Assembly (NCBI GenBank): GCA_017550535.1
Contig: JAFZOS010000097.1
Span: forward strand, 1-58,552
DNA from: Lachnospiraceae bacterium
GTDB lineage: Bacteria; Bacillota; Clostridia; Lachnospirales; Lachnospiraceae
Direction: 5' to 3'
DNA: 58,552 nt
Shown here one piece after another: positions 27,834 through 44,772 of this stretch; the stretch's first letter is position 1, and every line of letters starts with the position of its first letter. Below the pieces are notes generated by a model, which had not been told where the DNA came from, did no database searches, and saw nothing but the letters and a program-made list of their open reading frames with translations. Both the position numbers and the translations under genes were made by a program.

Positions 27834-27892
27834 ACCCCTTAAAAGTTAACCGGATTTAACAAAAAATATCAGATAATGTTCGGTTTAGTTGA

Positions 27893-27921
27893 TAGACATT
27901 CCCGATCTTTGAGGATATTAT
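27893..27921 (+). promoter_or_regulatory. Predicted promoter of acyltransferase gene
   Basis: TAGACA (27893-27898), 17-bp spacer, TATTAT (27916-27921); TATAAT at 27919-27924 is an overlapping alternative -10. GTTAA/TTAAC upstream (27845-27860) may be a weak terminator of the previous operon. Confidence 0.5.
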
Positions 27922-27954
27922 AATGTTAAAAATAATTGCAAAGGTGGGAAATAT

Positions 27955-29031: not shown

Positions 29032-29457
29032 ATGTTTAAGGATAATCTCGTTCATACCCGAAAGATCAAGGGGATGACACAGGAGGATATCGCCGAAAGG
29101 TTAGGCGTCACAAGACAGACGGTCGCAAAGTGGGAATCAGGGGAATCGGTACCCGATCTTGACAAGTGCAAGCTGCTTGCCGAGATGCTTGAGATATCCC
29201 TAGATGATCTGGCAAATTATGAGGCGGGCGATAATATGGGGCTGGCAGTGCCGCCGAAGGGTAAATACTTCTTCGGAATGGTAACGGTCGGCGAAAAGGG
29301 ACAGATAGTAATTCCCGCGAAGGCAAGGAAGGTGTTTGATATATCCGCCGGTGACAACCTTGTCATACTGGGTGACGAAGGGCAGGGACTGGCCATTGTA
29401 AAGCCCGATAATTTCCTTGCGATCGCGGATGCGATAAGGGAGATCGAAAAAAAATAA
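29032..29457 (+). CDS. XRE helix-turn-helix / AbrB (SpoVT) fusion regulator
   Basis: 141 residues. Residues ~3-60 are a Cro/C1-type HTH (IKGMTQEDIAERLGVTRQT, VAKWESGESVPD). Residues ~82-130 are an AbrB swapped-hairpin DNA-binding domain (VTVGEKGQIVIPAKARKVF, ISAGDNLVILGDE). Two different DNA-binding folds in one short chain; the AbrB part also dimerises. It probably represses its own operon with the acyltransferase. A-rich sequence follows the stop. Confidence 0.92.
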   Translation: MFKDNLVHTRKIKGMTQEDIAERLGVTRQTVAKWESGESVPDLDKCKLLAEMLEISLDDLANYEAGDNMGLAVPPKGKYFFGMVTVGEKGQIVIPAKARKVFDISAGDNLVILGDEGQGLAIVKPDNFLAIADAIREIEKK

Positions 29458-29473
29458 AAAAATATCCTAAAAA

Positions 29474-29506
29474 CCTATTGACATAGTAGGTTAATTGTGT
29501 TAGATT
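29474..29506 (+). promoter_or_regulatory. Promoter with overlapping CymR-like operator, upstream of metY leader
   Basis: Consensus TTGACA (29478-29483), 17-bp spacer and TAGATT (29501-29506). The -35 sits inside CCTATTGACATAGTAGG (29474-29490), an imperfect palindrome (CTAT/ATAG and CCTA/TAGG). The 14-mer ATTGACATAGTAGG is repeated exactly at 32,588-32,601 before the second PLP enzyme gene. A repressor bound here would block RNA polymerase. The nearby Rrf2 gene (32,093) is the obvious candidate; this is inference. Confidence 0.75.
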
Positions 29507-29536
29507 GTATCCATCGAAGCAAAAAGGAGGCACAAA

Positions 29537-29662
29537 ATGCATAACTTCATTGTAAGCAGATGGATCGATTCAATGTGTTGTCGAATGCAGGATACCCGGG
29601 CAGATCATATGACCGGTGCTTTCGGCTGCTCATATCCGCATCCCGATATCATGCGATGTTGA
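29537..29662 (+). CDS. Cys/Met-rich leader peptide of metY attenuator
   Basis: 41 codons, ATG to TGA, preceded by AAAAAGGAGG at 6-nt spacing, starting about 24 nt after the predicted transcription start. It has Cys at 14, 15, 31 and 41 (last codon) and Met at 1, 13, 17, 25 and 39, including the run MCCRM. Nine sulfur amino acids in 41 is far above normal and fits a sensor of cysteine or methionine supply. No homology to a functional protein is apparent. It lies between a good promoter and a terminator in front of metY, so its translation probably sets readthrough. Confidence 0.75.
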   Translation: MHNFIVSRWIDSMCCRMQDTRADHMTGAFGCSYPHPDIMRC

Positions 29663-29719
29663 AGCAGCAAATGCATGCGTCATCTGTCCGGGTGCTGGTA
29701 ATACAGCAGCCGTTTTTTT
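29623..29719 (+). promoter_or_regulatory. Transcription attenuator of metY (competing hairpins and terminator)
   Basis: Terminator: CGGGTGCTG (29689-29697) pairs with CAGCAGCCG (29704-29712), one G-G mismatch, then TTTTTTT (29713-29719). Alternatives: CGGCTGCT (29623-29630), inside the leader gene and overlapping Cys codon 31, pairs perfectly over 8 bp with AGCAGCCG (29705-29712) and over 6 bp with AGCAGC (29663-29668); CAGCA (29665-29669) can pair with TGCTG (29693-29697). Ribosome position on the leader would decide which forms. Which pairing is the antiterminator cannot be settled by eye. Confidence 0.65.
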
Positions 29720-29781
29720 ATGATAAGACAAGTAACCGGTAAATATTCTATCAGATAAATGAAAATACAGGAGGAACAAAC

Positions 29782-31065
29782 ATGAGTAATTATAAATTTG
29801 AAACATTACAGTTACACGTAGGACAGGAACAGGCGGATCCCGCAACCGATTCACGCGCGGTGCCGATCTATCAGACAACATCATACGTTTTCCATAACAG
29901 CAAGCATGCGGCTGACCGCTTCGGACTTGCCGATGCCGGAAATATATACGGAAGGCTTACGAATTCAACCCAGGATGTGCTTGAGAAAAGGGTAGCAGCC
30001 CTTGAAGGCGGCAGCGCGGCTCTTGCGGTAGCATCGGGTGCGGCGGCTATCAGTTATACTATAGAAGCACTTGCGGCAAACGGCGGACATATCGTTGCCC
30101 AGAAAACCATCTACGGCGGAACCTTCAACCTTCTTGCACATACACTTCCGCAGTACGGCATAAAGACAACTTTCGTTAACATCCACGACCTTAAGGAAGT
30201 GGAAGCTGCCATTACCGATGACACGAGGGCGGTATTCCTTGAGACTCTCGGCAACCCGAACAGTGATATCCCGGATATCGATGCGGTGGCTGAGATCGCA
30301 CATAAAAAAGGAATTCCGGTTGTCATTGATAACACATTCGGTACACCATACCTTATCCGTCCCATCGAGCACGGTGCCGACATCGTTGTTCATTCGGCGA
30401 CCAAGTTCCTGGGTGGACACGGTACAACACTTGGCGGTATCATAGTAGAGTCGGGCAAGTTTAACTGGAAGGCAAGCGGTAAGTACCCGAACATAGCCGA
30501 TGCCAATCCGAGCTATCACGGTGTATCGTTCTACGATGTGGTTGGTCCTGCGGCCTTCGTTACCTATATTCGTGCGATCCTGCTTCGCGACACCGGAGCA
30601 TCGATCTCTCCGTTTAACGCTTTCCTTCTCCTTCAGGGAATTGAGACGCTTTCGCTCAGGCTTGAAAGGCATGCCGAGAATACGAAGAAGGTTGTTGAAT
30701 ACTTAAGCAAACATGCAAAGGTTGCAAAGGTTAACCATCCTTCGCTTCCCGATCATCCGGATCATGCTCTGTATGAAAGGTATTTTAAGGACGGCGGCGG
30801 ATCGATCTTTACCTTTGATATAAAGGGCGGCAAGGAAGAGGCATGGAAGTTTATCGACAATCTTGAGATATTCTCGCTGCTAGCAAACGTAGCCGATGTA
30901 AAGAGCCTTGTGATCCATCCGGCAACAACGACACATTCACAGCTTTCCGAGGAAGAGCTTTTGGATCAGGGCATAAATCAGAGCACTATAAGGCTTTCAA
31001 TCGGAACCGAGCATATAGATGATATCATCGCGGATCTTGAAAAAGGATTTGCAGCAATAGGGTAG
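29782..31065 (+). CDS. metY: O-acetylhomoserine aminocarboxypropyltransferase (sulfhydrylase)
   Basis: 427 residues, PLP-dependent Cys/Met metabolism family. It joins a sulfur donor to O-acetylhomoserine to make homocysteine; in Wolinella the donor is a protein thiocarboxylate (HcyS). Seen: YGRLTNST near the start, the PLP lysine in HSATKFLGGHG, the MetY-type insertion with FNWKASG and SYHGVSF, and SLLANVADVKSL, VIHPATTTHSQ in the C-terminal domain. ACAGGAGGAACAAAC precedes the ATG, nearly identical to the encapsulin gene's site. Control appears threefold: CymR-like operator, leader peptide and terminator upstream. It opens the sulfur island. Confidence 0.93.
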   Translation: MSNYKFETLQLHVGQEQADPATDSRAVPIYQTTSYVFHNSKHAADRFGLADAGNIYGRLTNSTQDVLEKRVAALEGGSAALAVASGAAAISYTIEALAANGGHIVAQKTIYGGTFNLLAHTLPQYGIKTTFVNIHDLKEVEAAITDDTRAVFLETLGNPNSDIPDIDAVAEIAHKKGIPVVIDNTFGTPYLIRPIEHGADIVVHSATKFLGGHGTTLGGIIVESGKFNWKASGKYPNIADANPSYHGVSFYDVVGPAAFVTYIRAILLRDTGASISPFNAFLLLQGIETLSLRLERHAENTKKVVEYLSKHAKVAKVNHPSLPDHPDHALYERYFKDGGGSIFTFDIKGGKEEAWKFIDNLEIFSLLANVADVKSLVIHPATTTHSQLSEEELLDQGINQSTIRLSIGTEHIDDIIADLEKGFAAIG

Positions 31066-31130
31066 TTGATAATAATAATATAAATCACAAGAATCAGAAT
31101 AAACACAGATTGATTAAGGAGGAGATCATT

Positions 31131-32063
31131 ATGTCAAACATTTACAAAGGTACACTCGGACTCGTAGGAAACACCCCTCTTGTTGAGGTAGTAAATATTG
31201 AGAAGGATTTAGGTCTTGAGGCTACGGTCCTCGTTAAGCTTGAATACTTTAATCCGGCCGGCAGCGTTAAGGACCGTATCGCAAAGGCTATGATCGAGGA
31301 TGCGGAGCAGAAGGGCCAGCTTAAGGAGGGTTCAGTGATCATCGAGCCCACCAGCGGTAATACGGGTATAGGCCTTGCCGCGATCGCAGCATCCAAGGGT
31401 TATCGTGTGATACTTACAATGCCCGAGACCATGAGCGTTGAGCGCAGGAGCATACTTAAGAGCTACGGTGCCGAGATCGTGTTGACGGAAGGCCCCAAGG
31501 GCATGAAGGGAGCGATCGAAAAGGCTGATGAGCTGGCTAAGGAGATCCCTAACAGCTTCATTCCCGGACAGTTTGTCAATCCCGCCAATCCGGCGATCCA
31601 TAAGGCTACCACCGGTCCCGAGATATGGAAGGATACGGACGGAAAGGTTGATATCTTCATCGCGGGCGTAGGTACCGGCGGTACCGTGACCGGTACGGGC
31701 GAATACCTTAAGGAGCAGAATCCCAATATCAAAGTCGTTGCACTTGAACCCGAGGATTCACCGGTGCTTTCGGAAGGAAGGTCGGGTGCCCATAAGATAC
31801 AGGGTATCGGCGCCGGATTTGTACCCGATGTGCTTAACACGAAGATTTATGACGAGGTATTCAAGGCTTCCAATAATGATGCATTTGAAACCGCAAAGCT
31901 GCTTGCAAGGAAGGAAGGCATTTCCGTAGGTATTTCTTCGGGAGCGGCACTCTACGGAGCGCTTGAGCTTGCAAAGAGACCCGAAAACAAGGGCAAGACC
32001 ATCGTGGCACTGCTTCCCGACAGCGGAGACAGGTATTATTCAACGGCATTGTTCACCGAGTGA
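31131..32063 (+). CDS. cysK: Cysteine synthase (O-acetylserine sulfhydrylase)
   Basis: 310 residues, fold-type II PLP enzyme. PLP lysine in AGSVKDRIA, substrate loop TSGNTGIGLA, phosphate-binding GTGGTVTGTG, and GISSGAAL near the end. It makes cysteine from O-acetylserine and sulfide, or possibly a carrier thiocarboxylate as the related CysM does in Mycobacterium. The ATG at 31131 follows AAGGAGGAG; an in-frame TTG at 31110 precedes that site and is rejected. In Bacillus, CysK binds CymR and turns it into a repressor; here the Rrf2 gene is the next gene, 29 bp downstream. Confidence 0.95.
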   Translation: MSNIYKGTLGLVGNTPLVEVVNIEKDLGLEATVLVKLEYFNPAGSVKDRIAKAMIEDAEQKGQLKEGSVIIEPTSGNTGIGLAAIAASKGYRVILTMPETMSVERRSILKSYGAEIVLTEGPKGMKGAIEKADELAKEIPNSFIPGQFVNPANPAIHKATTGPEIWKDTDGKVDIFIAGVGTGGTVTGTGEYLKEQNPNIKVVALEPEDSPVLSEGRSGAHKIQGIGAGFVPDVLNTKIYDEVFKASNNDAFETAKLLARKEGISVGISSGAALYGALELAKRPENKGKTIVALLPDSGDRYYSTALFTE

Positions 32064-32092
32064 TCATTTAAAGTTTAAGGAGTCTGATTCTT

Positions 32093-32539
32093 ATGAGAGT
32101 TTCAACAAGGGTTGAATACGGACTTCTGGCACTTGCGGATATCGCCCTTTATTCCGAAAACGGGGCCTCGGTATCGGCCCCGGAGATATCCCAGCGTGAA
32201 GGAATATCGAAAAAATACCTTGAGCAGATATTGCCTCTTTTAAGACAGGCGGGGCTTATCAGGGCTCAGAAGGGATTAAGGGGCGGATATTCCTTAACAC
32301 GCAGCGCTGATACCATGAAGATGTCGGAAGTCCTTAATGCCCTGGATAACACCATCCTTGAGGAGATGGATCATCCGGACGGAAACGGAGCATTAGGCCT
32401 TCGCGGCGCAGTCGATGAGTGCTTCTGGGGCAAGTTAAACAATGTGCTTACGGGCTTTGCCGAGGGCAGCAGCTTTTCTGATTTTGTAAAGGACTGCCGG
32501 GACAGGATGGCAAAAGGCTGGGATATGTACGTAATATAG
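32093..32539 (+). CDS. cymR: Rrf2-family transcription regulator, CymR-like
   Basis: 148 residues. Winged helix with VSTRVEYGLLALADIAL, the recognition region EGISKKYLEQILPLLRQAG and wing GLRGGYSLTR. It has only two Cys (DECFW, KDCRD), not the three-Cys cluster ligand set of IscR, so it resembles CymR, the cysteine-metabolism repressor that works with CysK. Position directly after cysK supports this. Its likely sites are the ATTGACATAGTAGG copies at 29,477 and 32,588. Symbol given by analogy. Confidence 0.85.
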   Translation: MRVSTRVEYGLLALADIALYSENGASVSAPEISQREGISKKYLEQILPLLRQAGLIRAQKGLRGGYSLTRSADTMKMSEVLNALDNTILEEMDHPDGNGALGLRGAVDECFWGKLNNVLTGFAEGSSFSDFVKDCRDRMAKGWDMYVI

Positions 32540-32551
32540 TAAACAAAGCAC

Positions 32552-32575
32552 AGACCTTCGTGGTCTATATATTTT
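32552..32575 (+). terminator. Possible weak terminator after cymR-like gene
   Basis: AGACC (32552-32556) / GGTCT (32562-32566) hairpin followed by ATATATTTT. The stem is only 5 bp and the T-run interrupted, so termination would be partial. It separates metY-cysK-cymR from the downstream set. Confidence 0.4.
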
Positions 32576-32587
32576 GACATTACACCC

Positions 32588-32601
32588 ATTGACATAGTAG
32601 G
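32588..32601 (+). promoter_or_regulatory. Second copy of CymR-like operator
   Basis: ATTGACATAGTAGG, identical over 14 nt to 29,477-29,490, ending 10 bp before the ATG at 32612. The -10 position implied by its TTGACA would fall on the start codon, so it is more likely an operator than a promoter here. Another TTGACA is at 32574-32579, without a good -10. Confidence 0.65.
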
Positions 32602-32611
32602 CAGGTAATAT

Positions 32612-33844
32612 ATGCGTTTTAACACTAAGCTTTTACACGGAAAAACATCAAAGGGTTACGCGTCGCGCGAAATGCTCCCGCCTATCTCGCAGGTAAGTGC
32701 CTTCAGATATGAGAGCATGGAAGAGCTTGAGAAGGTGTTTGAGCATAAGAGCAACGGATATGCATATACCCGTGTGGGGAATCCCACAATATCCGCTTTT
32801 GAACAGAGGATAAACGAACTTGATGGCGGAGCCGGCGCGATATGCTGCAGCAGCGGCATGTCGGCCGTGACGTCGGCATTGCTTGCCGTTTGTGAGAGCG
32901 GAGATGAGATCATAGCATCCAGCGGTCTGTACGGAGGAACGATAGGGTTGCTCCATGACCTTGAAAAGCTTGGGATCCATACGGTCTTTGCTGATGATAT
33001 ATCGGAAGGATCGCTCAAGTCCCTTTTAAGCGAAAGGACTAAGGTCATTTATGCGGAACTTATATCAAATCCATCTCTTAAAGTACTTGATGTTGCCGGC
33101 ACGGCTAAAGCCGCGCACGAGGCGGGAATACCGCTGTTTGTTGATTCTACTACAGCTACTCCCTACATAGCGCGTCCTCTGTCAATGGGAGCCGATGTGG
33201 TCATCCATTCAACATCCAAGTATTTAAACGGAGGCGGCAATTCCATAGGCGGGATCATAGTCGACGGCGGCAGGTTCAAATGGGATCCCGAAAAGCATAC
33301 GGCACTTAAGGAATTTAAGAAATACGGCCCTATGGCTTTTTCGGTAAGGCTTCGCACCGACATCTGGGAAAACTTCGGAGGCTGTATGGCACCCGCCAAT
33401 GCCTTCCTTAATTTCATAGGAACGGATACGCTTGGCCTTCGGATGGAGAGGATATGCGATAATGCCGACAAGCTGGCACATGCGCTTGACGCACTTGACG
33501 GGATAAGTGTAAATTATCTGACTCTTCCTTCTCATCCATATCACAGATATGTTGAAGAAGAACTTAACGGTTTCGGAGGCGGGATACTAAGCTTCAGGGC
33601 CGGTTCGAAGGAAAGGGCGTTTAAGATAATCAATTCTTTAAAATATGCAATGATCGCAAGCAATATAGGAGATCTGAGGACCCTTGTGATACACCCCGCA
33701 TCGACTCTTTATGTTCAGGCTTCAAAACAGGAGATGGAGGCGGCCGGCGTGTATGAGGATACGGTAAGGGTGAGCGTCGGTATTGAGGATGTGAACGATC
33801 TTATCGATGATTTTACGGAGGCGGTAAATGGTACTGCTGAGTGA
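32612..33844 (+). CDS. Cys/Met metabolism PLP enzyme (O-acetylhomoserine/O-acetylserine sulfhydrylase or gamma-lyase type)
   Basis: 410 residues, second member of the PF01053-type family in the island. YAYTRVGNPT near the start, PLP lysine in HSTSKYLNGGGNS, and IASNIGDLRTLVIHPAST in the C-terminal domain. The segment after the lysine (GGRFKWDPEKH) is MetY-like, so a sulfhydrylase accepting an acylated amino acid and a carrier-bound sulfur is favoured over cystathionine gamma-lyase; the exact substrate cannot be read. Weak ribosome site (AGGCAGG). Its 3' end overlaps the JAMM gene by 17 nt, tying it to the first carrier module. Confidence 0.85.
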   Translation: MRFNTKLLHGKTSKGYASREMLPPISQVSAFRYESMEELEKVFEHKSNGYAYTRVGNPTISAFEQRINELDGGAGAICCSSGMSAVTSALLAVCESGDEIIASSGLYGGTIGLLHDLEKLGIHTVFADDISEGSLKSLLSERTKVIYAELISNPSLKVLDVAGTAKAAHEAGIPLFVDSTTATPYIARPLSMGADVVIHSTSKYLNGGGNSIGGIIVDGGRFKWDPEKHTALKEFKKYGPMAFSVRLRTDIWENFGGCMAPANAFLNFIGTDTLGLRMERICDNADKLAHALDALDGISVNYLTLPSHPYHRYVEEELNGFGGGILSFRAGSKERAFKIINSLKYAMIASNIGDLRTLVIHPASTLYVQASKQEMEAAGVYEDTVRVSVGIEDVNDLIDDFTEAVNGTAE

Positions 33845-34256
33845 TAAGGCATACCGGCTTATTACGGAGCATGTAAACGGTGCTTATCCGCACGAAGCCT
33901 GCGGTGTGCTGCTTGGAAGCGCGGACGGGACGAGGATTGACCATATCAGTCAAGCAGAGAATGCAGTAAAAAGCGGCAATGCTGATGAACGTTTTTATAT
34001 CGATCCTGTATGGCTGTACGGGATCGAGCGTGAGTCGGAAAAGGACGGCAGGCAGGTACTGGGGTTTTACCATTCACATCCTGACAGGCCGGCTGTTCTG
34101 TCAAACGAGGATAAGGATCATATGATACCCGGGATGATATACCTGATTGCATCGGTTACAGGACGGGAGTGTAAGGATCTTAAGGGTTATAAAAAGGAAA
34201 GCGCGGACGGCTCAGCCCGGGCGACTAAGATCGTAAGGGAGGCGGCTTTAAATTGA
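33828..34256 (+). CDS. JAMM (M67/MPN+) metalloprotease of sulfur-carrier module 1
   Basis: 142 residues. Complete JAMM zinc site: E23 in PHEACG, H82-S-H84 in YHSHPDRP and S92-x-x-D95. Homologues (Mec of Mycobacterium, HcyD of Wolinella, QbsD) either trim a sulfur carrier to expose Gly-Gly or release Cys/homocysteine from it. It starts within the preceding PLP enzyme gene, preceded by GGAGG at about 7 nt, and its TGA overlaps the start of the next gene (the carrier-E1-rhodanese fusion) by 4 nt. Such tight coupling suggests the fusion is its substrate. Confidence 0.9.
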   Translation: MVLLSDKAYRLITEHVNGAYPHEACGVLLGSADGTRIDHISQAENAVKSGNADERFYIDPVWLYGIERESEKDGRQVLGFYHSHPDRPAVLSNEDKDHMIPGMIYLIASVTGRECKDLKGYKKESADGSARATKIVREAALN

Positions 34257-35710
34257 AGGTTTATATATCGGCTACATTACGGAACTTCTTCGGAAGGAAC
34301 CGGGTGATAGATGCAACGGGAAACACGATAAGGGATATATTAAGGTTCTTGACCGATGAGTATCCGGAGGCAAAGGAAATACTGTATGACGGATCGGGAA
34401 AATTAAGAAGCTTTATCAGGATATATGTCGGGAATGAAAACAGAACCGAGCAGGATAAGTGGTATAAGGAGCTGAAGGAAGAAGATGAAGTCCTGCTGCT
34501 GCCTGCGATCGCGGGAGGAGCGCCGCAGGAAAGCATAATATCGGATGAAAGAAGGAAAGAAGAATCATTTGATGATGCGGAAATAGAACGATTCGGAAAA
34601 CATCTTTTGTTACGCGAGATAGGAGTAAAGGGGCAGAAACGGATAAAAGCGGCAAAGGTGGTCGTTATAGGGGCGGGAGCCCTTGGATCACCGGTGATAC
34701 AGTACCTTGCGGCAGCAGGAGTGGGAACGATAAAGGTGGTTGATCATGACGATGTTTCCCTTGAGAACCTGCAAAGCCAGGTGATCCATACAAGCCGCGA
34801 CGTTAAGCGTCCAAAGGTGGCATCCGCCAAGGACAAGGTAAGGAATATAAACAGAAGTATAGTTTTCGAAGATGAGAACACAAAGATCGATGCAGGCAAC
34901 ATAGAAGAGATAATAGACGGTTATGATCTTGTGATCGATTGCACAGACAATTACAAGGCAAGATATCTTATAAATGATGCGTGCGCTTTGCTTGGGATAC
35001 CGCTTGTGTTCGGTGCCATTTATCAGTACGAGGGCCAGGTTGGTATCTTCAATCTTAACGGCGGTCCGTGCTACAGGTGTCAGTTCCCCGCTCCGCCTGA
35101 GCCCGGACTGGTTCCTACCTGTGCGGAGGGCGGCGCCATAAGCCCTCTGCCGGGTATTATAGGCAGCATTCAGGCCAATGAGGCCTTAAAACTTATAATA
35201 GGCATCGGCGAGCATCTTGACGGAAAGCTCCTTACGATAGACAGCCTGTATCTTCACTCGAGGATACTAAAGGTGAATAAGGATCATAAGTGTCCGATAT
35301 GTGGGACAGAACCTTCGATATTCAAGGTTGAGGAATTCGATTACGAGGATTTCTGCGGACTTAAGGAAAAGGAGAATGAGATACCGGTCGAGGGCTTCAC
35401 ACCAGAAGAACTGGCAAAGAAGATAGAAAACGATGAGCCGATCACGATAATCGACGTGCGTGAACCCCATGAGAGGGCTATCCGCAGGTTCCCCAACGCG
35501 ATCGCTATCCCGATAGGACAGCTGGCACGAAGGAAGGATGAACTCGATCCCACAAAGGATACCGTATTTATCTGTAAGGAAGGCAAGCGAAGCATACTTG
35601 CGATAAATACACTCAGGGAAGCCGGATATACGGGGCCTATGTACAACTTAAAGGGCGGGTTTGATGCGATGAAGGATATCGTATTCTCGCATGAAGGAGC
35701 ATGGCTCTAG
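34253..35710 (+). CDS. Three-domain fusion: beta-grasp sulfur carrier + MoeB/ThiF-type E1 + rhodanese
   Basis: 485 residues. Residues 1-89 resemble MoaD/CysO and end in AIAGG, with G88-G89 followed by APQES and a linker rather than a free terminus. Residues ~105-350 are an adenylyltransferase: G140-A-G-A-L-G145, CYRC and CPIC zinc pairs, and a likely catalytic Cys in VPTCAEGG. Residues ~375-485 are a rhodanese with persulfide Cys441 in ICKEGKRS. MoeB-rhodanese fusions are known (MoeZ, Uba4/MOCS3); the added N-terminal carrier is unusual. To act as a thiocarboxylate the carrier would have to be cut at GG|AP, plausibly by the JAMM protease encoded just upstream. Confidence 0.9.
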   Translation: MKVYISATLRNFFGRNRVIDATGNTIRDILRFLTDEYPEAKEILYDGSGKLRSFIRIYVGNENRTEQDKWYKELKEEDEVLLLPAIAGGAPQESIISDERRKEESFDDAEIERFGKHLLLREIGVKGQKRIKAAKVVVIGAGALGSPVIQYLAAAGVGTIKVVDHDDVSLENLQSQVIHTSRDVKRPKVASAKDKVRNINRSIVFEDENTKIDAGNIEEIIDGYDLVIDCTDNYKARYLINDACALLGIPLVFGAIYQYEGQVGIFNLNGGPCYRCQFPAPPEPGLVPTCAEGGAISPLPGIIGSIQANEALKLIIGIGEHLDGKLLTIDSLYLHSRILKVNKDHKCPICGTEPSIFKVEEFDYEDFCGLKEKENEIPVEGFTPEELAKKIENDEPITIIDVREPHERAIRRFPNAIAIPIGQLARRKDELDPTKDTVFICKEGKRSILAINTLREAGYTGPMYNLKGGFDAMKDIVFSHEGAWL

Positions 35711-35808
35711 GAGCAGACATTACGTTATTTATTTAACGGTGAATACGCCTGATAAGGAGCGGGCGATTTCATAGACATTTATTAACTTTTTAAACAGGAG
35801 GAACCATT

Positions 35809-36765
35809 ATGGCAAACGACAAAGTAATTAAGGAGGGCATCAACGCTCTGGGGGCGCAGGCGGCGTATAATCTTGCGAATATCACCAAGACCAAGCCTCA
35901 GTTTGGTGCGCTGACACCCAAGTGGCTGACCAAATTCCTTGAGTTCAAGGGACTTGAGACCGGCATCTACAGGGTAAACAAAGTTGTGGAGGGCGATACG
36001 CCTCTCGATGTACTCTGCAGCCAGACCAAGAAGTCGGATATCATTCCGCAGGGTTATGTTGAATATGAGACAAAACCCCGTGAGTATGTTCTCAATTCGA
36101 TCTCGACGATCATTAATGTAAACACCGCTGTTGAGGATGTTTACAGCGTACCTTACGACCAGGTACAGGAACAGCTGGGGCTTGCGATCGAGTCATTAAG
36201 GGAGCGTCAGGAAAGCCAGCTTATCAATAACGATGATTACGGCCTTCTTAAGAACGTGGCTGATTCTCAGAGGATACAGACACGTAACGGAGCACCCACA
36301 CCGGATGATCTTGATGAGCTGATCACAAAGGTATGGAAGGAGCCTTCATTCTTCCTTGCTCATCCAAGGGCAATAGCCGCATTTGAGAGAGAGTGCACTA
36401 AGCGCGGAGTACCGCCTGTAGTCGTAAACATCGCGGGCGGAACCTTCCTTACATGGAGGGGTATACCCATCATACCTACCGACAAGCTTTTGGTTGACGG
36501 ACTTAAGAATCCCAAGTCACAGAGCGGAAAGACCAATATCCTTCTTATCCGTACAGGTGAAGCAAAGAGGGGTGTTATAGGTCTGTTCCAGGCAGGACTT
36601 AAGAATGAGCATTCAAGGGGCCTGTCAGTACGTTTCAGAGGAATCGATGATAAGGGAGTTGCATCTTATCTATTATCGCTGTACTGCTCGGCTGCAATAC
36701 TTGCAGATGATGCGATCGCAGTACTTGAGGATGTAGAAGTAGGTGAATATTATGACTACGATTGA
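35809..36765 (+). CDS. Family 2A encapsulin shell protein (SrpI-like)
   Basis: 318 residues, HK97-fold nanocompartment protein. The start NALGAQAAYNLANITKTKPQ, the segment GLETGIYRVNKV, and SVPYDQVQEQLGLAIESL, GGTFLTWRGIPIIPTDK and RGLSVRFRGIDDKG match the SrpI group. Family 2A shells self-assemble and enclose a cysteine desulfurase; the Acinetobacter example stores elemental sulfur. AACAGGAGGAACC precedes the ATG. The desulfurase gene begins 14 nt before this gene's stop. The 98-bp gap upstream contains CGTTA/TAACG (35723-35738), a small hairpin, and no clear promoter. The acidic C-terminus (EVGEYYDYD) is typical. Confidence 0.93.
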   Translation: MANDKVIKEGINALGAQAAYNLANITKTKPQFGALTPKWLTKFLEFKGLETGIYRVNKVVEGDTPLDVLCSQTKKSDIIPQGYVEYETKPREYVLNSISTIINVNTAVEDVYSVPYDQVQEQLGLAIESLRERQESQLINNDDYGLLKNVADSQRIQTRNGAPTPDDLDELITKVWKEPSFFLAHPRAIAAFERECTKRGVPPVVVNIAGGTFLTWRGIPIIPTDKLLVDGLKNPKSQSGKTNILLIRTGEAKRGVIGLFQAGLKNEHSRGLSVRFRGIDDKGVASYLLSLYCSAAILADDAIAVLEDVEVGEYYDYD

Positions 36766-38518
36766 GAACCTTGCCGGCGTTCCGGATGCGGGTGAACTCA
36801 CAATTCTTGCAAATGAACTGTTTCCGGATCTTACGGAAGGTGTATACGGTATTCCTGAGGCGGATATACCGGTTGCATCCGTACCTGAGGTGAATGCATC
36901 CCAGGGTGATTCTGCTATAAGAACTGCAGAAGAGGTTCCGGGAGTTAACGCTTACGAGGCTGTTCCCAACACCGGTTCAGGCGAGCTTGTACAGGGGACG
37001 GGAAGCATACCGACAACCGATGTGTTTGACTGGGAGCACCCCTTCGCATACGGAGGAGGATACAGCGATCCGTACCTTCAGACAGTGGAGGCGGTAAGTG
37101 CACCTGAGGCTGAGCTTATACCGGGTACGGGAGACGTACCGGTCTTTACAGGAACAGAAAATACAAGTTACGCACCTGCCGTAATGTCGCAGGAACAGGC
37201 CAAGGAGAATGACCGTAAGATAGATGCACCGACCTCACTGGGCGGGGATAATGTCGTAAACGGAAGGAAGGCAGCCCCGGCTTCATCAAGGAACGATTCA
37301 ATAAGGATCGGCAGCAAGTCTTTAGCTCAGATAAGGGATGATTTTCCGATCCTTAAGGAGCAGATAAACGGGCATCCGCTCGTATGGCTTGATAACGGCG
37401 CAACGACCCAGCGTCCGCAGGTCGTGATAGACAGGCTTTCACACTACTACGAGCACGAGAACTCAAATGTTCACAGGGGCGCTCATACATTAGCCGCAAG
37501 GTCGACTGATGCATATGAGAATGCACGCGATATAGTCCGTGACTTTATCGGGGCTCCTTCATCTGAGGAGATAGTGTTTGTCCGCGGTACGACAGAGGGC
37601 ATCAATCTTGTCGCAAACGCTTATGTAAAGCCGCAGCTTACGCCCGGTGATGAGATAATCGTTTCGATACTTGAGCATCACGCAAATATCGTTCCATGGC
37701 AGCTTATAGCACAGGCTACAGGTGCAGTGATAAAGGTGATCCCCTGTGATGAAACCGGACAGCTCATACTTCATGAATATGAGAAGCTGTTTACGAAAAG
37801 GACTAAGTTTGTCGCCGTGACACATGTTTCCAATGTGCTCGGAACGGTTACCCCGGTCGAGGAACTTATAGCTATCGCCCACAGGCACGGTGTGCGTATC
37901 CTTATTGACGGAGCACAGTCGGTGGCGCATATACCGGTAAATGTATCGGCCCTGGATGCTGACTTCTTTGTATTCTCCGGGCACAAGATATTTGCGCCGA
38001 CGGGTATAGGAGCAGTATACGGAAAGAAGGAACTGCTTGAAGCGGCTCAGCCATATCATGGCGGCGGAAATATGATAGCGGATGTGACTTTTGAACGCAC
38101 CATATACAATCCCGCGCCGAACAAATTCGAAGCGGGAACGGGAAGCATAGCCGACGCTGTCGGACTCGGCGCGGCGCTTACCTATCTTTCCGAGATAGGC
38201 ATGCCCTGCGTATATCGCTGGGAACACGAGCTGTTACAGTACGCGCTTAAGGAAATGAAGTCGGTAAAGGGCATCCATTTGGTCGGGACAGCACTCAACA
38301 AAGCATCGGCTCTTGCGTTTAAGCTTGACGGTTATTCCGATGAGGAAGTCGGAAAAAGGCTTGATGCATACGGTATCGCGGTGCGTACGGGACATCACTG
38401 CGCACAACCCGTGCTCAGACGTTTCGGATACGAGAGCACCGTAAGGCCGACGATAGCGCTTTACAATTCACCTGATGACATTGACGCGCTGGTAAAGGTA
38501 TTAAAAACATTTGCATAA
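36752..38518 (+). CDS. Encapsulin cargo: SufS-type cysteine desulfurase with disordered N-terminal loading domain
   Basis: 588 residues. Residues 1-~190 are low in hydrophobicity and rich in Pro, Gly, Thr, Ala and Glu, with near-repeats ELVQGTGSIP and ELIPGTGDVP; this extension is the encapsulation domain in Family 2A cargo. Residues ~195-588 are a class V PLP enzyme with EHHANIVPW, PLP lysine K412 in FSGHKIFAPTG and persulfide Cys C550 in RTGHHCAQP. It converts cysteine to alanine plus enzyme persulfide. The ATG at 36752 with AGGTGA upstream is preferred to the in-frame GTG at 36743. A GC-rich hairpin follows the stop. Confidence 0.94.
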   Translation: MTTIENLAGVPDAGELTILANELFPDLTEGVYGIPEADIPVASVPEVNASQGDSAIRTAEEVPGVNAYEAVPNTGSGELVQGTGSIPTTDVFDWEHPFAYGGGYSDPYLQTVEAVSAPEAELIPGTGDVPVFTGTENTSYAPAVMSQEQAKENDRKIDAPTSLGGDNVVNGRKAAPASSRNDSIRIGSKSLAQIRDDFPILKEQINGHPLVWLDNGATTQRPQVVIDRLSHYYEHENSNVHRGAHTLAARSTDAYENARDIVRDFIGAPSSEEIVFVRGTTEGINLVANAYVKPQLTPGDEIIVSILEHHANIVPWQLIAQATGAVIKVIPCDETGQLILHEYEKLFTKRTKFVAVTHVSNVLGTVTPVEELIAIAHRHGVRILIDGAQSVAHIPVNVSALDADFFVFSGHKIFAPTGIGAVYGKKELLEAAQPYHGGGNMIADVTFERTIYNPAPNKFEAGTGSIADAVGLGAALTYLSEIGMPCVYRWEHELLQYALKEMKSVKGIHLVGTALNKASALAFKLDGYSDEEVGKRLDAYGIAVRTGHHCAQPVLRRFGYESTVRPTIALYNSPDDIDALVKVLKTFA

Positions 38519-38534
38519 ACAGACATTTATCTGT

Positions 38535-38556
38535 CGCGGAGCTTTAACGCTCCGCG
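38535..38556 (+). promoter_or_regulatory. Intercistronic GC-rich hairpin between cargo gene and serine acetyltransferase
   Basis: Perfect 8-bp stem CGCGGAGC (38535-38542) / GCTCCGCG (38549-38556), loop TTTAAC, preceded by a smaller ACAGA/TCTGT hairpin. No T-run follows, so it is more likely an mRNA stability or processing element than a terminator. It could keep shell and cargo mRNA more abundant than downstream mRNA. Confidence 0.6.
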
Positions 38557-38584
38557 GCGGGCAAATGACAGGGGAAAAGATACC

Positions 38585-39547
38585 GTGAATGAGATAATCA
38601 GAGAAGAAGAAGTCGATCATATAGTCAAAACGATTTTCGCTGATTTTGAAGGCGGAAAAAACATTGACGAGATAAATATATACAATAAACCGGACAAAAA
38701 CGAGGTCCATGAACTTATCCAGAATCTATTCAGGATAATATATCCCGGATATTTCAGGGACCGTTCGTATAAGATATACAACCCGAAGAACAGCTTTGCA
38801 GTGATAATAGAGGACATATTTTATCATCTGAGCAAGCAGGTATATCTCGCACTTGATTACTGCCGTAAAAGGGGAACGCTTACTGATGCGCAGAGGAAGA
38901 AGGAAAGCTACCGTATCTGCAAGGCGTTTTTTGACAGGATACCGAAGATCCGTGAATATATCGAAACGGATCTGATAGCTGCATATGACGGTGATCCCGC
39001 GGCGGGGTGTTTTGAGGAGATCATACTTGCATATCCGGGGCTTATGGCGATAACCGTATACAGGCTGGCACACGAGCTGTATCTTGAGCAGGTACCCGTT
39101 CTGCCGAGGCTTATGACCGAATATGCGCACAGCAAGACGGGAATCGACATACATCCCGGGGCAACAATAGACAAATATTTCTTTATCGATCACGGTACCG
39201 GCATCGTTGTAGGTGAGACGGCTGTGATAGGTAAGAATGTAAAGATATATCAGGGTGTTACCATAGGTGCTCTTTCAACAAGGGGAGGACAGAAGCTTTC
39301 GGGTAAGAAGCGGCATCCTACCATATGCGACAACGTTACTATATATGCCGGGGCTTCGATCCTGGGCGGCGATACCGTGATCGGCGAGAATGCCGTTATC
39401 GGAGGCAACGCATTTATCACCCGTTCCATAGATGCTGATACGAGAGTCAGCATGAAGAACCTTGAGATGGAGTATTACCGCACCGGAGGAAACGAAAGCA
39501 GGAAGGAAGAGTTAACGCAGAGTGATGAGTGGTATTACATAATTTAG
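38585..39547 (+). CDS. cysE: Serine O-acetyltransferase (EpsC/CysE type, long form)
   Basis: 320 residues. Residues 1-~185 are helical (hexamer-type N-terminus), then a left-handed beta-helix with GIDIHPGATIDKYFFIDHG, VVGETAVIGKNVKIYQGV, TIGALSTRGG and KRHPTICDNV. Makes O-acetylserine, the acceptor used by cysteine synthases. The long N-terminus resembles the EpsC group. GTG start at 38585 with AGGGGA upstream. Its presence right after the cysteine desulfurase means the island both makes and breaks down cysteine. Confidence 0.93.
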   Translation: MNEIIREEEVDHIVKTIFADFEGGKNIDEINIYNKPDKNEVHELIQNLFRIIYPGYFRDRSYKIYNPKNSFAVIIEDIFYHLSKQVYLALDYCRKRGTLTDAQRKKESYRICKAFFDRIPKIREYIETDLIAAYDGDPAAGCFEEIILAYPGLMAITVYRLAHELYLEQVPVLPRLMTEYAHSKTGIDIHPGATIDKYFFIDHGTGIVVGETAVIGKNVKIYQGVTIGALSTRGGQKLSGKKRHPTICDNVTIYAGASILGGDTVIGENAVIGGNAFITRSIDADTRVSMKNLEMEYYRTGGNESRKEELTQSDEWYYII

Positions 39548-39558
39548 GAGGAAAAAAT

Positions 39559-39768
39559 ATGAAGATCACAGTAGCAGGCGAAAAGAAGGAAGTTGCGGAC
39601 GGGCTTACCGTTGCGGCACTCATTGAGCAGGAGAATGTCGAGACACCCGAATATGTTACGGTGTCGGTAAATGAGGAATTCATCGACAAAGAAGTTTTTG
39701 ACTGCCATGTTTTGAAAGAAGGAGACGAGGTTGAGTTTCTTTACTTCATGGGAGGAGGAGCACGATAA
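39559..39768 (+). CDS. ThiS/MoaD-like sulfur carrier with masked C-terminus (module 2)
   Basis: 69 residues, beta-grasp fold: MKITVAGEKKEV, NEEFIDKE, then GDEVEFLYFMGGG. Active carriers end in Gly-Gly, whose carboxylate is adenylated and sulfurated. Here GGG (65-67) is followed by A68-R69, so the terminus is blocked until trimmed, as with HcyS-Ala or QbsE. The JAMM gene two genes downstream is the likely processor. AGGAGG lies 7 nt before the ATG at 39559; a longer in-frame start at 39529 falls inside cysE. Its stop shares one base with the E1 start (TAATG). Confidence 0.88.
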   Translation: MKITVAGEKKEVADGLTVAALIEQENVETPEYVTVSVNEEFIDKEVFDCHVLKEGDEVEFLYFMGGGAR

Positions 39769-40577
39769 TGGCTTTTACCAATGAACAGCTGGAGCGTTAT
39801 TCCAGACACATAATATTAAAAGAAGTCGGCGTTAAGGGCCAGAAGAAGCTGCTTAACGCAAAGGTACTTATAATCGGTGCCGGAGGTTTGGGCGCACCCG
39901 CCGCATTGTATCTTGCGGCAGCAGGCGTTGGAACCATAGGTATAGCCGATGCGGATGTGGTGGATCTTTCAAACCTGCAGAGGCAGGTCATCCATACCAC
40001 CGATGATATCGGAAAGAAGAAGGTTGAGTCCGCAGCCGAGACGATGAGGCAGATCAATCCGGATGTTACTGTCAATACATATTATCAGTTTGTCAACAGC
40101 TCAAATATCCTTGATCTTATAAAGGATTATGATTTCATACTTGACGGAACGGACAATTTTCCTGCCAAGTTTCTTATAAACGATGCATGCGTTATGGCGA
40201 AAAAGCCGCTGTCCCATGCCGGCATCATCAGGTTCAAGGGACAGCTTACCACGATAATCCCCGGTGAAGGTCCCTGCTACAGATGTATATTCAAAAATCC
40301 ACCGCCGAAGGATGCGGTACCTACATGTAAGCAGGCGGGCGTCATTGGCGCAATGGGAGGTGTCATCGGTTCACTGCAGGCCATGGAAGCGGTCAAGTAT
40401 ATAACCGGGGCAGGTGACCTGCTGGTCGGATATCTCCTCACTTATGACGCTCTTAAGATGGAATTCCATAAGATAAAACTTCCGCCTCGCGGCAAAGGCT
40501 GCGCGGTATGCTCGGATACCCCGACCATAACCGAGCTTGTTGATTATGAACAGGCGGAGTGTGAACTTAAACACTGA
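39768..40577 (+). CDS. MoeB/ThiF/HesA-type E1 adenylyltransferase (module 2)
   Basis: 269 residues. Nucleotide motif G37-A-G-G-L-G42, the LSNLQRQVIH segment shared by MoeB/ThiF, zinc pairs CYRC and CAVC, and Cys187 in VPTCKQAG in the loop used for thio-transfer. It would adenylate the Gly-Gly end of the carrier and pass sulfur to it. Unlike module 1 it has no rhodanese; the TusA-like protein or the desulfurase may give sulfur. Overlaps the carrier stop by one base. Confidence 0.92.
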   Translation: MAFTNEQLERYSRHIILKEVGVKGQKKLLNAKVLIIGAGGLGAPAALYLAAAGVGTIGIADADVVDLSNLQRQVIHTTDDIGKKKVESAAETMRQINPDVTVNTYYQFVNSSNILDLIKDYDFILDGTDNFPAKFLINDACVMAKKPLSHAGIIRFKGQLTTIIPGEGPCYRCIFKNPPPKDAVPTCKQAGVIGAMGGVIGSLQAMEAVKYITGAGDLLVGYLLTYDALKMEFHKIKLPPRGKGCAVCSDTPTITELVDYEQAECELKH

Positions 40578-40589
40578 ATGGAGCAGCAA

Positions 40590-41018
40590 ATGCGTATTAC
40601 GATTAAACAGACCGATTTTGACATGATATATGAGCATGCCCTTAAGGAGAGTCCCGATGAAGCATGCGGGCTGATCGCGGGCGAAGACCGGGAAGACGGT
40701 GTAAGGGAGATAAGCAGGGTTTATATACTTGAAAACATCGACCACACAAATGAACATTTCACGATCGATCCAAAGGAGCAGCTTGCGGCAATAAAGGATA
40801 TGCGTGCATGCGGACTCAAACCGCTCGGCAACTGGCATTCCCATCCCGAGTCACCGTCAAGGCCGTCAGAGGAAGATAAGAGGCTTGCAAATGACAGTAA
40901 GGCAAGTTATCTGATCCTTTCGCTCATGGAGGAAGGGAAGCCTGTTCTTAATGCTTTTCATATAGAGAGCATTAACGGCGAAAAGACGGTACGAAAGGAA
41001 GAACTTGTAATAGTATAG
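40590..41018 (+). CDS. JAMM (M67/MPN+) metalloprotease of sulfur-carrier module 2
   Basis: 142 residues from the ATG at 40590, or 146 from 40578, which abuts the E1 stop. GGAG at 40580-40583 favours 40590. Numbered from 40578, the zinc site is E28 (DEACG), H87-S-H89 (WHSHPESP), S97 and D100, all intact. Expected to trim AR from the module 2 carrier and/or release the amino acid product from the carrier. It differs clearly in sequence from the module 1 protease, so the two are not a recent duplication. Confidence 0.9.
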   Translation: MRITIKQTDFDMIYEHALKESPDEACGLIAGEDREDGVREISRVYILENIDHTNEHFTIDPKEQLAAIKDMRACGLKPLGNWHSHPESPSRPSEEDKRLANDSKASYLILSLMEEGKPVLNAFHIESINGEKTVRKEELVIV

Positions 41019-41041
41019 ATCACTGAGAAAGGAGATTTAAA

Positions 41042-41293
41042 ATGGCTGAACTTGATTTTAATGTTGATGATACTGTTGATATTACCGATGTGAACTGCCC
41101 GGTTACCTTTGTAAAGACAAAGGTCGCGCTCGAGGAGCTTGATGACGGACAGATACTGCAGGTCCACTTAAATGACGGTGAACCTTTGCAGAATGTGCCG
41201 AGGAGCATTAAGGAAGAAGGTCATGAGGTTCTAAAGCTTATAGATAACGGCGACGGTACACATGAGCTTTACATCAAAAAGGTAGGAGACTAA
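41042..41293 (+). CDS. tusA: TusA/SirA-like sulfur transfer protein
   Basis: 83 residues. Starts acidic, then DVNCPVTFVKTKVALEEL: the Cys (C19) stands where TusA has its persulfide Cys, but the usual CPxP second Pro is Thr. Then GQILQVHLNDGEP and VPRSIKEEGHEVL, the TusA fold. TusA takes persulfide from a desulfurase and relays it; here it could link the encapsulated desulfurase to the E1 of module 2. AAAGGAG precedes the ATG. Last gene of the island. Confidence 0.88.
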   Translation: MAELDFNVDDTVDITDVNCPVTFVKTKVALEELDDGQILQVHLNDGEPLQNVPRSIKEEGHEVLKLIDNGDGTHELYIKKVGD

Positions 41294-41300
41294 CCTTTTT
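41276..41300 (+). terminator. Probable terminator of sulfur island
   Basis: AAAAAGGT (41276-41283) / ACCTTTTT (41293-41300), an 8-bp stem with a 9-nt loop spanning the tusA stop codon; A-run and T-run make it potentially bidirectional. Confidence 0.7.
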
Positions 41301-41355
41301 GCAAAGCTAATGCCGGCATTGTGTTAAATAAAATACAAACCTATATGTAATTGTG

Positions 41356-41397
41356 AAAAACAGACTCAAATCCGTACGTGATGGGTCTGTTTTTTTG
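41356..41397 (+). terminator. Second terminator-like hairpin
   Basis: AAAAACAGAC (41356-41365) / GTCTGTTTTTTT (41385-41396) with a loop of about 19 nt and a long T-run, downstream of the first terminator. Together they isolate the island from the next gene. Confidence 0.7.
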
Positions 41398-41410
41398 TGA
41401 TAAGATATAA

Positions 41411-41439
41411 ATGGACCACAAACCCCGTCCCCTGGGGTC
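41411..41439. repeat. Short interspersed hairpin repeat, copy 1
   Basis: 21 nt at 41411-41431 (core GGACCACAAACCCCGTCC) are identical to 44728-44748. Here the element continues CTGGGGTC, which can pair with the GACC..CCCC parts. It lies 30 bp before the start of the phosphotransferase gene and just after a TATAA word. Confidence 0.75.
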
Positions 41440-41462
41440 ATTATTCAGGGAGGTTTCTAAGA

Positions 41463-42455
41463 ATGGTAACAAGTAAGACAAAATATGAAGCATCAAAAGA
41501 AGAGATAAAGGAGCTGTTTTCTTTCCATAAAGTGGGAAGTGTGCTTGATATATCACCTCTCGGAAACGGAGAGTTTAATGCAGCATATAAGGCAAGCTGC
41601 AATAACGGTATATCTTATGCTTTAAAGATCGCTCCTCCGGATGATTCGAGGGTTTTAAGCTATGAAAAGAATATGATGGAGTCAGAGGTGTTCTGGTACA
41701 AACAGATGCATGATAAGACAGACATCCTCTGCCCACGTGTGTATGTTTATGATCCTTCAAAAACAATAATCAAAAGCAGCTGCTTTATAATGGAAATGAT
41801 GGAGGGTGAGCCGCTGTGGGCAGTTGATTTTTCCGCTGATGAATATGAGGAAGTACAAAAGCAGAAGATAGGCATGCTTGCAAAGATCCATAAGATCTCA
41901 AATGACGGATTCGGATATATTCAAACGGGACTTAAGGCTTCATGGTATGAGGCCCTCAGGAATATGTCTGCCGGTCTGGTTAAGGACTGTAAGGACTTAG
42001 GATATGAAACGCCTGACGGAGAACAGTTCATTAAATACATTGATAAGAATGAAAGGCTGCTCCGGACGGTTCCCTGCAGAATGGTAAACTTTGATCTTTG
42101 GGACAGTAATGTCCTATACAATGCGAAGACGGGAAAGATCTGCTGGATCGATCCCGAGCGCGGCTTTTGGGGTGATCCTGTTGCCGATTTCATAACTCTA
42201 GGCTCGGGTCAGAAGGCACCTCTTTCGGAAAAGCTGAAGGAGCTTGAAATCTACAATGGGATGGCAGACGAGAAGATTGACCTTAATGAAGAAACTCAGA
42301 TAAGATATGCACTCGCTGTCTGCTACCTTGCCCTTATCGAGGAAGTGGAAAAATATGTAAGATACGAGCCTGATAATCCCAATTATTTAAGGAACACCGC
42401 CGATGCGAGAGAGATGTACGACATGGCATTCAACTGTCTTGGAACCTGTTTTTAA
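41463..42455 (+). CDS. Aminoglycoside-phosphotransferase-like kinase
   Basis: 330 residues, APH/choline-kinase fold. G-loop-like LGNGEFNAAY, Lys in YALKIAPP, catalytic loop VNFDLWDSNVLY (Asp and Asn of the HxDxxxxN motif, with Asn for His) and metal Asp in WIDPERGFWGDP. It phosphorylates a small hydroxylated molecule; the substrate is unknown and resistance should not be assumed. GGGAGG lies 9 nt before the ATG at 41463; earlier in-frame codons would translate the repeat element. Confidence 0.85.
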   Translation: MVTSKTKYEASKEEIKELFSFHKVGSVLDISPLGNGEFNAAYKASCNNGISYALKIAPPDDSRVLSYEKNMMESEVFWYKQMHDKTDILCPRVYVYDPSKTIIKSSCFIMEMMEGEPLWAVDFSADEYEEVQKQKIGMLAKIHKISNDGFGYIQTGLKASWYEALRNMSAGLVKDCKDLGYETPDGEQFIKYIDKNERLLRTVPCRMVNFDLWDSNVLYNAKTGKICWIDPERGFWGDPVADFITLGSGQKAPLSEKLKELEIYNGMADEKIDLNEETQIRYALAVCYLALIEEVEKYVRYEPDNPNYLRNTADAREMYDMAFNCLGTCF

Positions 42456-42512
42456 ATCGGATGACCGGCAGATTTGGTTATTGCAGCTAAGGATCATTTT
42501 ACGGAGGTTATT

Positions 42513-43502: not shown

Positions 43503-43530
43503 GATATCGGTCCCCAAAGGAGGAGTAATT

Positions 43531-43560
43531 GCAGATAATAATTGATTATCTGCATATTTT
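43531..43560 (+). terminator. Terminator or operator dyad between metal-binding protein and fic
   Basis: Perfect 9-bp inverted repeat GCAGATAAT (43531-43539) / ATTATCTGC (43545-43553), then ATATTTTTTATT. GCAGAT recurs at 43575-43580, so a regulatory role for fic is also possible. Confidence 0.7.
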
Positions 43561-44756: not shown

Positions 44757-44772
44757 ACAGAAGAGTTAAGTA

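Follow-up and report, generated by a model that had tools for sequence, protein, structure and literature searches.

A Family 2A desulfurase encapsulin is genetically linked to a fused sulfur carrier-E1-rhodanese protein across three bacterial phyla

The window analyzed here, a stretch of 58,552 nucleotides from Lachnospiraceae bacterium (contig JAFZOS010000097.1 of assembly GCA_017550535.1), contains an island of 13 genes, all on the + strand (29782-41293), in which a Family 2A encapsulin shell and its presumed cargo, the cysteine desulfurase CyD, are embedded among sulfur carrier proteins, E1 enzymes and JAMM metalloproteases. Co-occurrence across genomes and co-location in three phyla strongly support the conclusion that shell, cargo and carriers are one system. 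Desulfurase encapsulins of Family 2A are known, and what sets this variety apart is the putative thiocarboxylate pathway linked to it; the association is real and conserved across phyla, and we infer its function. The first-pass annotation of the window had joined the shell and cargo with two carrier modules in a single system, and this stands, except that the two carrier sets differ in standing: the carrier that is fused to an E1 and a rhodanese domain goes with the shell, and the second set (ThiS2-E1_2-JAMM2, with TusA) is separable and occurs without it.

In the family to which the window belongs, 10 of 397 genomes exceed the cut-off of the Family 2A model, and the same 10 genomes encode the full-length fusion, at 11 places among the matches listed by a fusion profile search that scored up to three candidates per genome. 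In genome G368, a contig reads cysK, JAMM1 and a fragment of the fusion up to its end, where the shell would come next; G015 has a weak shell match (9.6e-4) and is outside the 10. In the Fibrobacter genus, the shell profile matches 32 of the 61 genomes (30 at length and two as fragments). A long shell match and a full-length fusion are each present in 30 of these genomes and both together in 29, the two mismatches being cuts at contig ends: the shell of G1091 starts at the end of its contig, and in G1124, the fusion and a shell fragment are located at a contig end. Another genome of the genus, G1103, retains a 33-residue shell remnant without the fusion. Fisher tests of shell against fusion yield 4e-20 for the 397 genomes and 4e-15 for Fibrobacter, values that ignore kinship and are indicative only. 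Mantel correlations between the shell and each of the other genes are positive, but cannot separate co-inheritance from kinship and are not used as support. One genome, G135, holds two shell systems, a full island and one reduced to fusion, shell and CyD (L025, L032).

Gene order was read in annotated loci from the window, 11 stretches of the same family, 80 named loci, and 22 loci from the Fibrobacter genus and the family of a Ruminobacter metagenome-assembled genome (MAG). The named loci, some from the same MAG, are the 80 out of 209 that rank highest in similarity to these shells, and they therefore cannot speak for distant shells; L047, L091, L093 and L097, identical to other loci, were dropped. 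Genes were labeled by their similarity to proteins of the window, supplemented by five from L151, L155 and L156, so that diverged genes can be missed. A locus counted as readable if it extends beyond the shell by more than 1.6 kb upstream and 1.5 kb downstream. In all 103 such loci, the fusion immediately precedes the shell, and CyD is found within the next two reading frames downstream. The random occurrence of shell-desulfurase pairs without carriers, which the first-pass annotation had named as a refuting outcome, was not encountered, with 0 of the 103 loci of the clade lacking the fused carrier. Of the 100 loci that reach 2.3 kb or more upstream, 90 have a JAMM gene immediately before the fusion, and the third gene upstream of the shell, where at least 3.8 kb was available, is metY2 in 51 of 73 loci and cysK in 2 (53/73 together). 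Where each flank covers 6 kb or more, a JAMM gene is near the shell in 58 of 60 loci and a pyridoxal phosphate-dependent (PLP) sulfhydrylase (metY2, metY or cysK) in 50 of 60; where each flank covers 8 kb or more, cysE is found nearby in 33 of 37 loci, and the complete ThiS2-E1_2-JAMM2 set in 30 of 37, each time with TusA. The 73-locus and 37-locus counts cover the window, the same-family stretches and the named loci, leaving out L034 (a shell piece from the genome of L033) and L035-L039. Chance clustering was rejected on the strength of the genome co-occurrence and of the order fixed in 103/103 loci.

In a tree of 43 shells, which includes long branches, all 32 shells that are accompanied by a fused carrier form one clade (support 100/100). 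Its sister is the shell of the Aliarcobacter cibarius plasmid pACIB (99/89), and the shell of L210, a locus without carriers, falls outside with weak support (90/45). The plasmid (L205, 59694-78605 of the record) carries an unfused version of the system, with genes for a CysM-type synthase, JAMM, ThiS (ending in GGI), E1, rhodanese, shell, CyD, cysE and cysK, and an IS5-family transposase gene between E1 and rhodanese; this single occurrence is in a fourth phylum. Transposase genes are also found between JAMM and ThiS of pACIB. A plasmid search with the fusion matched 63 records, with coverage of at least 80% only in Aliarcobacter among the matches listed. No ThiS, JAMM or fusion was found in the 16 Family 2 loci outside the clade (L035-L039, L206-L212 and L259-L262; L035 ends about 450 bases upstream of the shell), where a distant E1-like gene (109 bits) is present once, some 5 kb away, and cysE-like genes occur in seven loci and rhodanese-like genes in three. 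Rhodanese and serine O-acetyltransferase are published accessory genes of such encapsulins according to the available sections of PMC8346489.

The fusion (34253-35710) consists of ThiS, ThiF/MoeB-type E1 and rhodanese domains and contains an internal Gly88-Gly89 pair. The Gly-Gly, the E1 Cys290 and the rhodanese Cys441 are each invariant in 103/103 fusions, and the E, H, H, S and D of the JAMM1 motif are present in 91/91 homologs of this Prok-JAB metalloprotease (33828-34256; PF14464, 61 bits). In an AlphaFold2 model built from 18 sequences (mean predicted local distance difference test score, pLDDT, 78; predicted template modeling score 0.58), the ThiS, E1 and rhodanese regions are folded, and pLDDT drops below 50 at residues 86-91, the Gly-Gly segment, and in the E1 loop 284-296. 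From the conserved active-site residues and the internal Gly-Gly, we predict that JAMM cuts the fusion after Gly-Gly and thereby frees the carrier. MoaX of Mycobacterium tuberculosis is comparable in that a carrier, MoaD, is fused ahead of another domain via an internal Gly-Gly and cleavage is needed for activity, a precedent by which the carrier within the fusion should need cutting after Gly-Gly for its activation (available sections of PMC4326299). It differs in that the partner is MoaE and the protease is described in the same sections as unidentified, whereas here the JAMM gene overlaps the fusion gene (PMC4326299). Trimming is likely for ThiS2 too, given that in most of 80 ThiS2 proteins, the tail is GGG followed by at least one further residue, a tail that is also seen in shell-less modules. 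The motif residues of JAMM2 are conserved in 69/69 proteins, the Cys of TusA in 66/66, and the Cys of E1_2 in 76/77, with one gap.

Parts expected for thiocarboxylate synthesis are present: a ThiS/MoaD-type carrier with Gly-Gly, E1 and JAMM with intact active sites, and a partner PLP sulfhydrylase, which in the window is the divergent metY2 (32612-33844; PF01053, 352 bits; TIGR01326, 403 bits, below the cut-off of 495), overlapping JAMM1. The carriers might instead be attached, in a ubiquitin-like manner, to lysines of the shell or the cargo and control the compartment, with the JAMMs removing them. Within NCBIfam, the desampylase model is the sole or best match of the JAMMs, and the SAMP1 model is matched by the fused carrier and by that of Aliarcobacter, in each case below the cut-off; the unusual conservation of the shell in the fused-carrier clade (see below) would also agree with such conjugation. 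However, the PLP sulfhydrylases, cysE, the rhodanese domain and TusA point to sulfur chemistry, and ThiS2 passes the sulfur carrier ThiS model, so that we regard conjugation as quite improbable. Even less credence can be given to the possibility that the shell supplies sulfur to carriers serving cofactor or tRNA thiolation: the E1-rhodanese part is indeed of the MoeB/UBA4 type, but the conserved core of the window (32612-41293) contains no gene for cofactor or tRNA thiolation (a statement about the window, not the unlabeled neighbors in its relatives), and most loci have a PLP sulfhydrylase gene next to JAMM1.

The shell (35809-36765) scores 493.5 bits against the Family 2A model NF041162 (cut-off 380) and 380.1 bits against the 2B model, below the cut-off of 400 for the latter. 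Pfam detects only the SrpI-like domain, and the protein accordingly belongs to Family 2A, as a member of the SrpI family without a cyclic nucleotide-binding (cNMP) domain; its relatives in the PDB are 8t6r and 6x8m. CyD (36752-38518) is a SufS-type desulfurase (TIGR01979, 542 bits, cut-off 475) with an N-terminal extension of about 180 residues, and its active-site Cys is retained in 102/103 homologs, with one gap. Across the loci, identity to the shell of the window is 80-96% (median 92%), compared with medians of 73% for the fusion and 37% for JAMM1. The ratio of shell divergence to that of the CyD catalytic domain is 0.66 inside the clade and 1.10 outside, which is only suggestive because the distances are uncorrected and the loci hand-picked; the slower divergence inside the clade might reflect an extra binding partner on the shell. 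Two loci are irregular: L255, a stretch with a guanine-plus-cytosine (GC) content of 0.27, has the fusion and the shell, with CyD split over two reading frames and no JAMM found, and in L258, most of the shell frame cannot be read (GC 0.08, which probably reflects a stretch of Ns), with the fusion before it and CyD after it.

The gene content, the linkage, the conserved active-site residues, the conserved Gly-Gly and the occurrence in three phyla are best explained by a compartment-based sulfur bank that has its own withdrawal line via thiocarboxylate carriers to cysteine or homocysteine, a reading to which we assign a probability of about 0.5. In this scheme, whose chemical steps, cargo loading, storage and product are all putative, CyD packed in the encapsulin would convert cysteine to alanine and sulfane sulfur, to be stored within the shell or on it. 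From there, the fusion would pick up the sulfur through its rhodanese domain, so that sulfur would pass physically from shell to carrier. JAMM1, or JAMM2 where JAMM1 is missing, would first cut the fusion after Gly-Gly to produce a free carrier C-terminus, the E1 domain would adenylate the freed carrier, and the rhodanese persulfide would turn it into a thiocarboxylate. The PLP sulfhydrylase (MetY2, or CysK/CysM in some loci) would then place the carrier sulfur on O-acetylserine, provided via CysE, or on O-acetylhomoserine, and JAMM would release cysteine or homocysteine from the carrier. The second set, TusA-ThiS2-E1_2-JAMM2, would represent the last section of a sulfate-assimilation route that has been connected to this store, in most loci without a nearby sulfite reductase. 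A 2024 study reportedly describes elemental sulfur in a Family 2A shell.

Several observations weigh against a sulfur bank of this composition. Ten of the 100 loci lack a JAMM gene directly upstream of the fusion (seven have one elsewhere in the stretch and three have none), and no recognized PLP sulfhydrylase is near the shell in 10/60 loci; the complete second set is missing in 7/37 loci and a nearby cysE in 4/37. CyD scores 781 bits against the cargo model NF041166, just below the cut-off of 800, and its N-terminal motif pattern is matched in 62/103 proteins only. A sulfite reductase domain is present in six of the 10 same-family shell genomes, and the need for a sulfur store in the rumen is unproven, because sulfide is generally plentiful there. 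The encapsulated desulfurase could also pass its persulfide directly to the carriers without storage, in a carrier-based transsulfuration from cysteine to homocysteine, the shell only shielding the desulfurase and the reactive sulfur. Such a relay would fit the MetA-type acyltransferase in nine of the 10 same-family shell genomes, the status of metY2 as the commonest PLP partner and the four shell genomes in which no NIR_SIR sulfite reductase domain was found (G000, the window genome, G233, G332 and G357); it fits poorly with cysE, which makes O-acetylserine rather than O-acetylhomoserine, near 33/37 shells and with the cysK or cysM partners of some loci, and we consider it possible but doubtful.

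The second carrier set also exists without a shell. In 19 stretches from the same family that lack a shell, chosen from the stronger E1 matches rather than at random, ThiS2 and E1_2 are present in 19/19, JAMM2 in 18/19 and a NIR_SIR-type sulfite reductase in 19/19, together with TusA, usually metY2 and often thioredoxin; the domains were verified on two proteins. These modules (L151-L169) combine metY2, sulfite reductase, TusA, thioredoxin, ThiS, E1 and JAMM in variable order and completeness, often near putative CysN and AprA genes, and are likely to be a sulfate-to-homocysteine (or cysteine) route in the same family. By contrast, a sulfite reductase is close in only four of the 30 shell loci with a complete second set, and no NIR_SIR match was found in the window genome assembly (98% complete), although the second set is kept, so that the window does not fall under a narrow HcyS/HcyD definition with a sulfite reductase in the cluster; among shell-less genomes with the second set, a sulfite reductase is present in 5/5. 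In Fibrobacter, E1_2 matches (E values up to 1e-60) are found in 28 of the 30 shell genomes vs. 8 of the 31 others.

A tree of E1_2 with 36 shell-linked and 19 other sequences (from 37 hand-picked shell loci, of which L239 yielded none) requires eight changes of the shell label, at least six of them forced by well supported branches, and a single clade of shell-linked E1_2 was rejected (approximately unbiased test, p-AU 9e-52). Either the second set has joined the shell unit repeatedly, or the shell has often been lost; the tree cannot tell gain from loss, and in our judgment, the tight shell clade makes repeated linking more probable than repeated loss of the shell. That the island merely gathers co-regulated neighbors under a shared sulfur-responsive operon, with the carriers using cytosolic sulfide and never shell sulfur, would agree with the second set standing beside sulfite reductase in all sampled shell-less stretches and by the lack of carriers in the 16 other Family 2 loci (L035 being unreadable upstream). 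Nevertheless, a full fusion without a shell was not seen among the matches listed for the 397 and 61 genomes, save for contig-end cuts, and the position of the fusion is fixed in 103/103 loci across phyla, which makes this explanation unlikely. The sulfur bank can be extended, tentatively, to a sulfur organelle in which the encapsulin would store sulfane sulfur and the JAMM-activated carrier-E1-rhodanese polyprotein would dock and withdraw it as thiocarboxylate; the unit would move between phyla and repeatedly capture carrier modules of sulfate assimilation, which in some genomes would obtain their sulfur from it instead of from sulfite reductase. In L076, L080, L097, L098 and L108, which come from Pseudobutyrivibrio and, in the case of L108, from a Lachnospiraceae MAG, the encapsulin unit is located in or next to putative sulfate-activation genes. 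The genes just upstream in the Pseudobutyrivibrio loci L076, L080 and L097 are putatively CysN and AprA; Pfam shows only GTP-binding and FAD-binding type domains in the two reference proteins.

By record titles, the hosts include Lachnospiraceae, Fibrobacter and Ruminobacter, many of them from rumen samples, and the shell profile matches 12 of the 56 genomes of the family of the Ruminobacter MAG (10 at length and two as fragments). The GC content of the flanks ranges from 0.26 to 0.53 across 17 loci, and the spread of the system is best read as horizontal transfer. That MAG contamination accounts in general for the matches in Fibrobacter and Ruminobacter was rejected given the many genomes, contigs of up to 1.3 Mb, and varied flanks and GC. 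The system is present in the named strains Pseudobutyrivibrio xylanivorans DSM 14809 and P. ruminis CF1b, so that the fate of encapsulin sulfur becomes directly testable.

Known systems resemble parts of the island. The HcyS-HcyF-HcyD-MetY cluster of Wolinella succinogenes is similar to the shell-less modules in combining carrier, E1, JAMM and MetY beside sulfite reductase; the window differs in lacking a sulfite reductase and in having the shell, CyD, cysE and a second, fused carrier. Mec+ of the CysO pathway is a JAMM enzyme. The CysO-CysM-Mec+-MoeZR system of M. tuberculosis includes an E1-rhodanese, a carrier, a cysteine synthase and a protease by which cysteine is cleaved off the carrier, but no encapsulin is described in the available sections of PMC3227635, where the carrier is separate from E1 and the sulfur source is called unknown. 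In the window, by contrast, carrier and E1 are parts of one fusion protein, and the neighboring genes include that of a desulfurase presumed to be encapsulated. The HcyS/HcyD-type homocysteine pathway is cited in the available sections of PMC5764234. SrpI of Synechococcus elongatus PCC 7942 is a homologous shell with a SufS-type cargo bearing an N-terminal extension and with cysE, cysK and rhodanese adjacent (available sections of PMC8049743), but no ThiS, E1 or JAMM was found in 17 kb of its locus, and the rhodanese is a separate small gene. Encapsulins with desulfurase cargo are cited as sulfur storage in the available part of PMC12407261, and the fate of sulfur freed in Family 2A encapsulins is left open between a carrier or rhodanese acceptor and storage in those of PMC8049743 and PMC8346489. 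In the open-access literature searched, we found no description of an encapsulin joined to a thiocarboxylate or sulfur carrier pathway, and the term 'ThiF' is absent from the main texts of PMC8346489 and PMC8049743. The gene linkage lays out a candidate acceptor pathway for encapsulin sulfur that belongs to a single shell clade. A compartment derived from HK97 is thereby connected with ubiquitin-like chemistry, and a carrier-E1 polyprotein that is processed by a protease is predicted.

The host genome of the window is 2.74 Mb, with the island on contig C17, and an assembly-wide model search found two Prok-JAB genes and one shell gene, all inside the island. By the list of open reading frames and the domain and NCBIfam models, the gene order is metY, cysK, Rrf2 regulator, metY2, JAMM1, fusion, shell, CyD, cysE-like, ThiS2, E1_2, JAMM2 and TusA-like. 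All genes named in the first-pass annotation are present as + strand open reading frames, the shell included. The regulator (32093-32539; PF02082, 80 bits) scores 63 bits against the CymR model (cut-off 195) and can be labeled only 'CymR-like'. The start of ThiS2 was moved from GTG 39529 to ATG 39559, the likely start, with AGGAGG just upstream, and start codons were also corrected for cysK (ATG 31131) and CyD (ATG 36752). Downstream of CyD are the cysE-like serine O-acetyltransferase with an N-terminal extension (38585-39547; TIGR01172, 163 bits, cut-off 211; EpsC model, 150.7 bits, cut-off 150), the sulfur carrier ThiS2 ending in GGGAR (39559-39768; TIGR01683, 66 bits), the stand-alone ThiF/MoeB-type enzyme E1_2 (39768-40577; PF00899, 295 bits), JAMM2 (40578-41018; PF14464, 89 bits) and the TusA-like sulfurtransferase (41042-41293; PF01206, 69 bits). 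With the revised starts, the gaps from metY2 onward range from -17 to 98 bases: metY2/JAMM1 -17, JAMM1/fusion -4, fusion/shell 98, shell/CyD -14, CyD/cysE 66, cysE/ThiS2 11, ThiS2/E1_2 -1, E1_2/JAMM2 0 and JAMM2/TusA 23.

At the upstream end of the island are metY, a canonical O-acetylhomoserine/O-acetylserine sulfhydrylase (29782-31065; TIGR01326, 622 bits, cut-off 495), cysK, encoding cysteine synthase A (31131-32063; TIGR01139, 453 bits, cut-off 351), and the Rrf2-family gene; since cysK is near only 5/37 and rrf2 14/37 relatives with at least 8 kb on both sides, these are variable neighbors. Pattern scans yielded no clear excess of promoter-like sites (17 vs. 20.0 in shuffles) or terminator-like sites (13 vs. 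10.5, standard deviation 3.4), and riboswitch control of the island was rejected, an Rfam search of 27000-46000 having given no match up to E 0.1, riboswitches included. By eye, a small protein encoded just upstream of the island (29032-29457) looks like a helix-turn-helix regulator with an AbrB-like part, and 42474-43502 encodes a lipoprotein that resembles the solute-binding protein of a metal ABC transporter and contains a long, acidic, Glu-rich insert.

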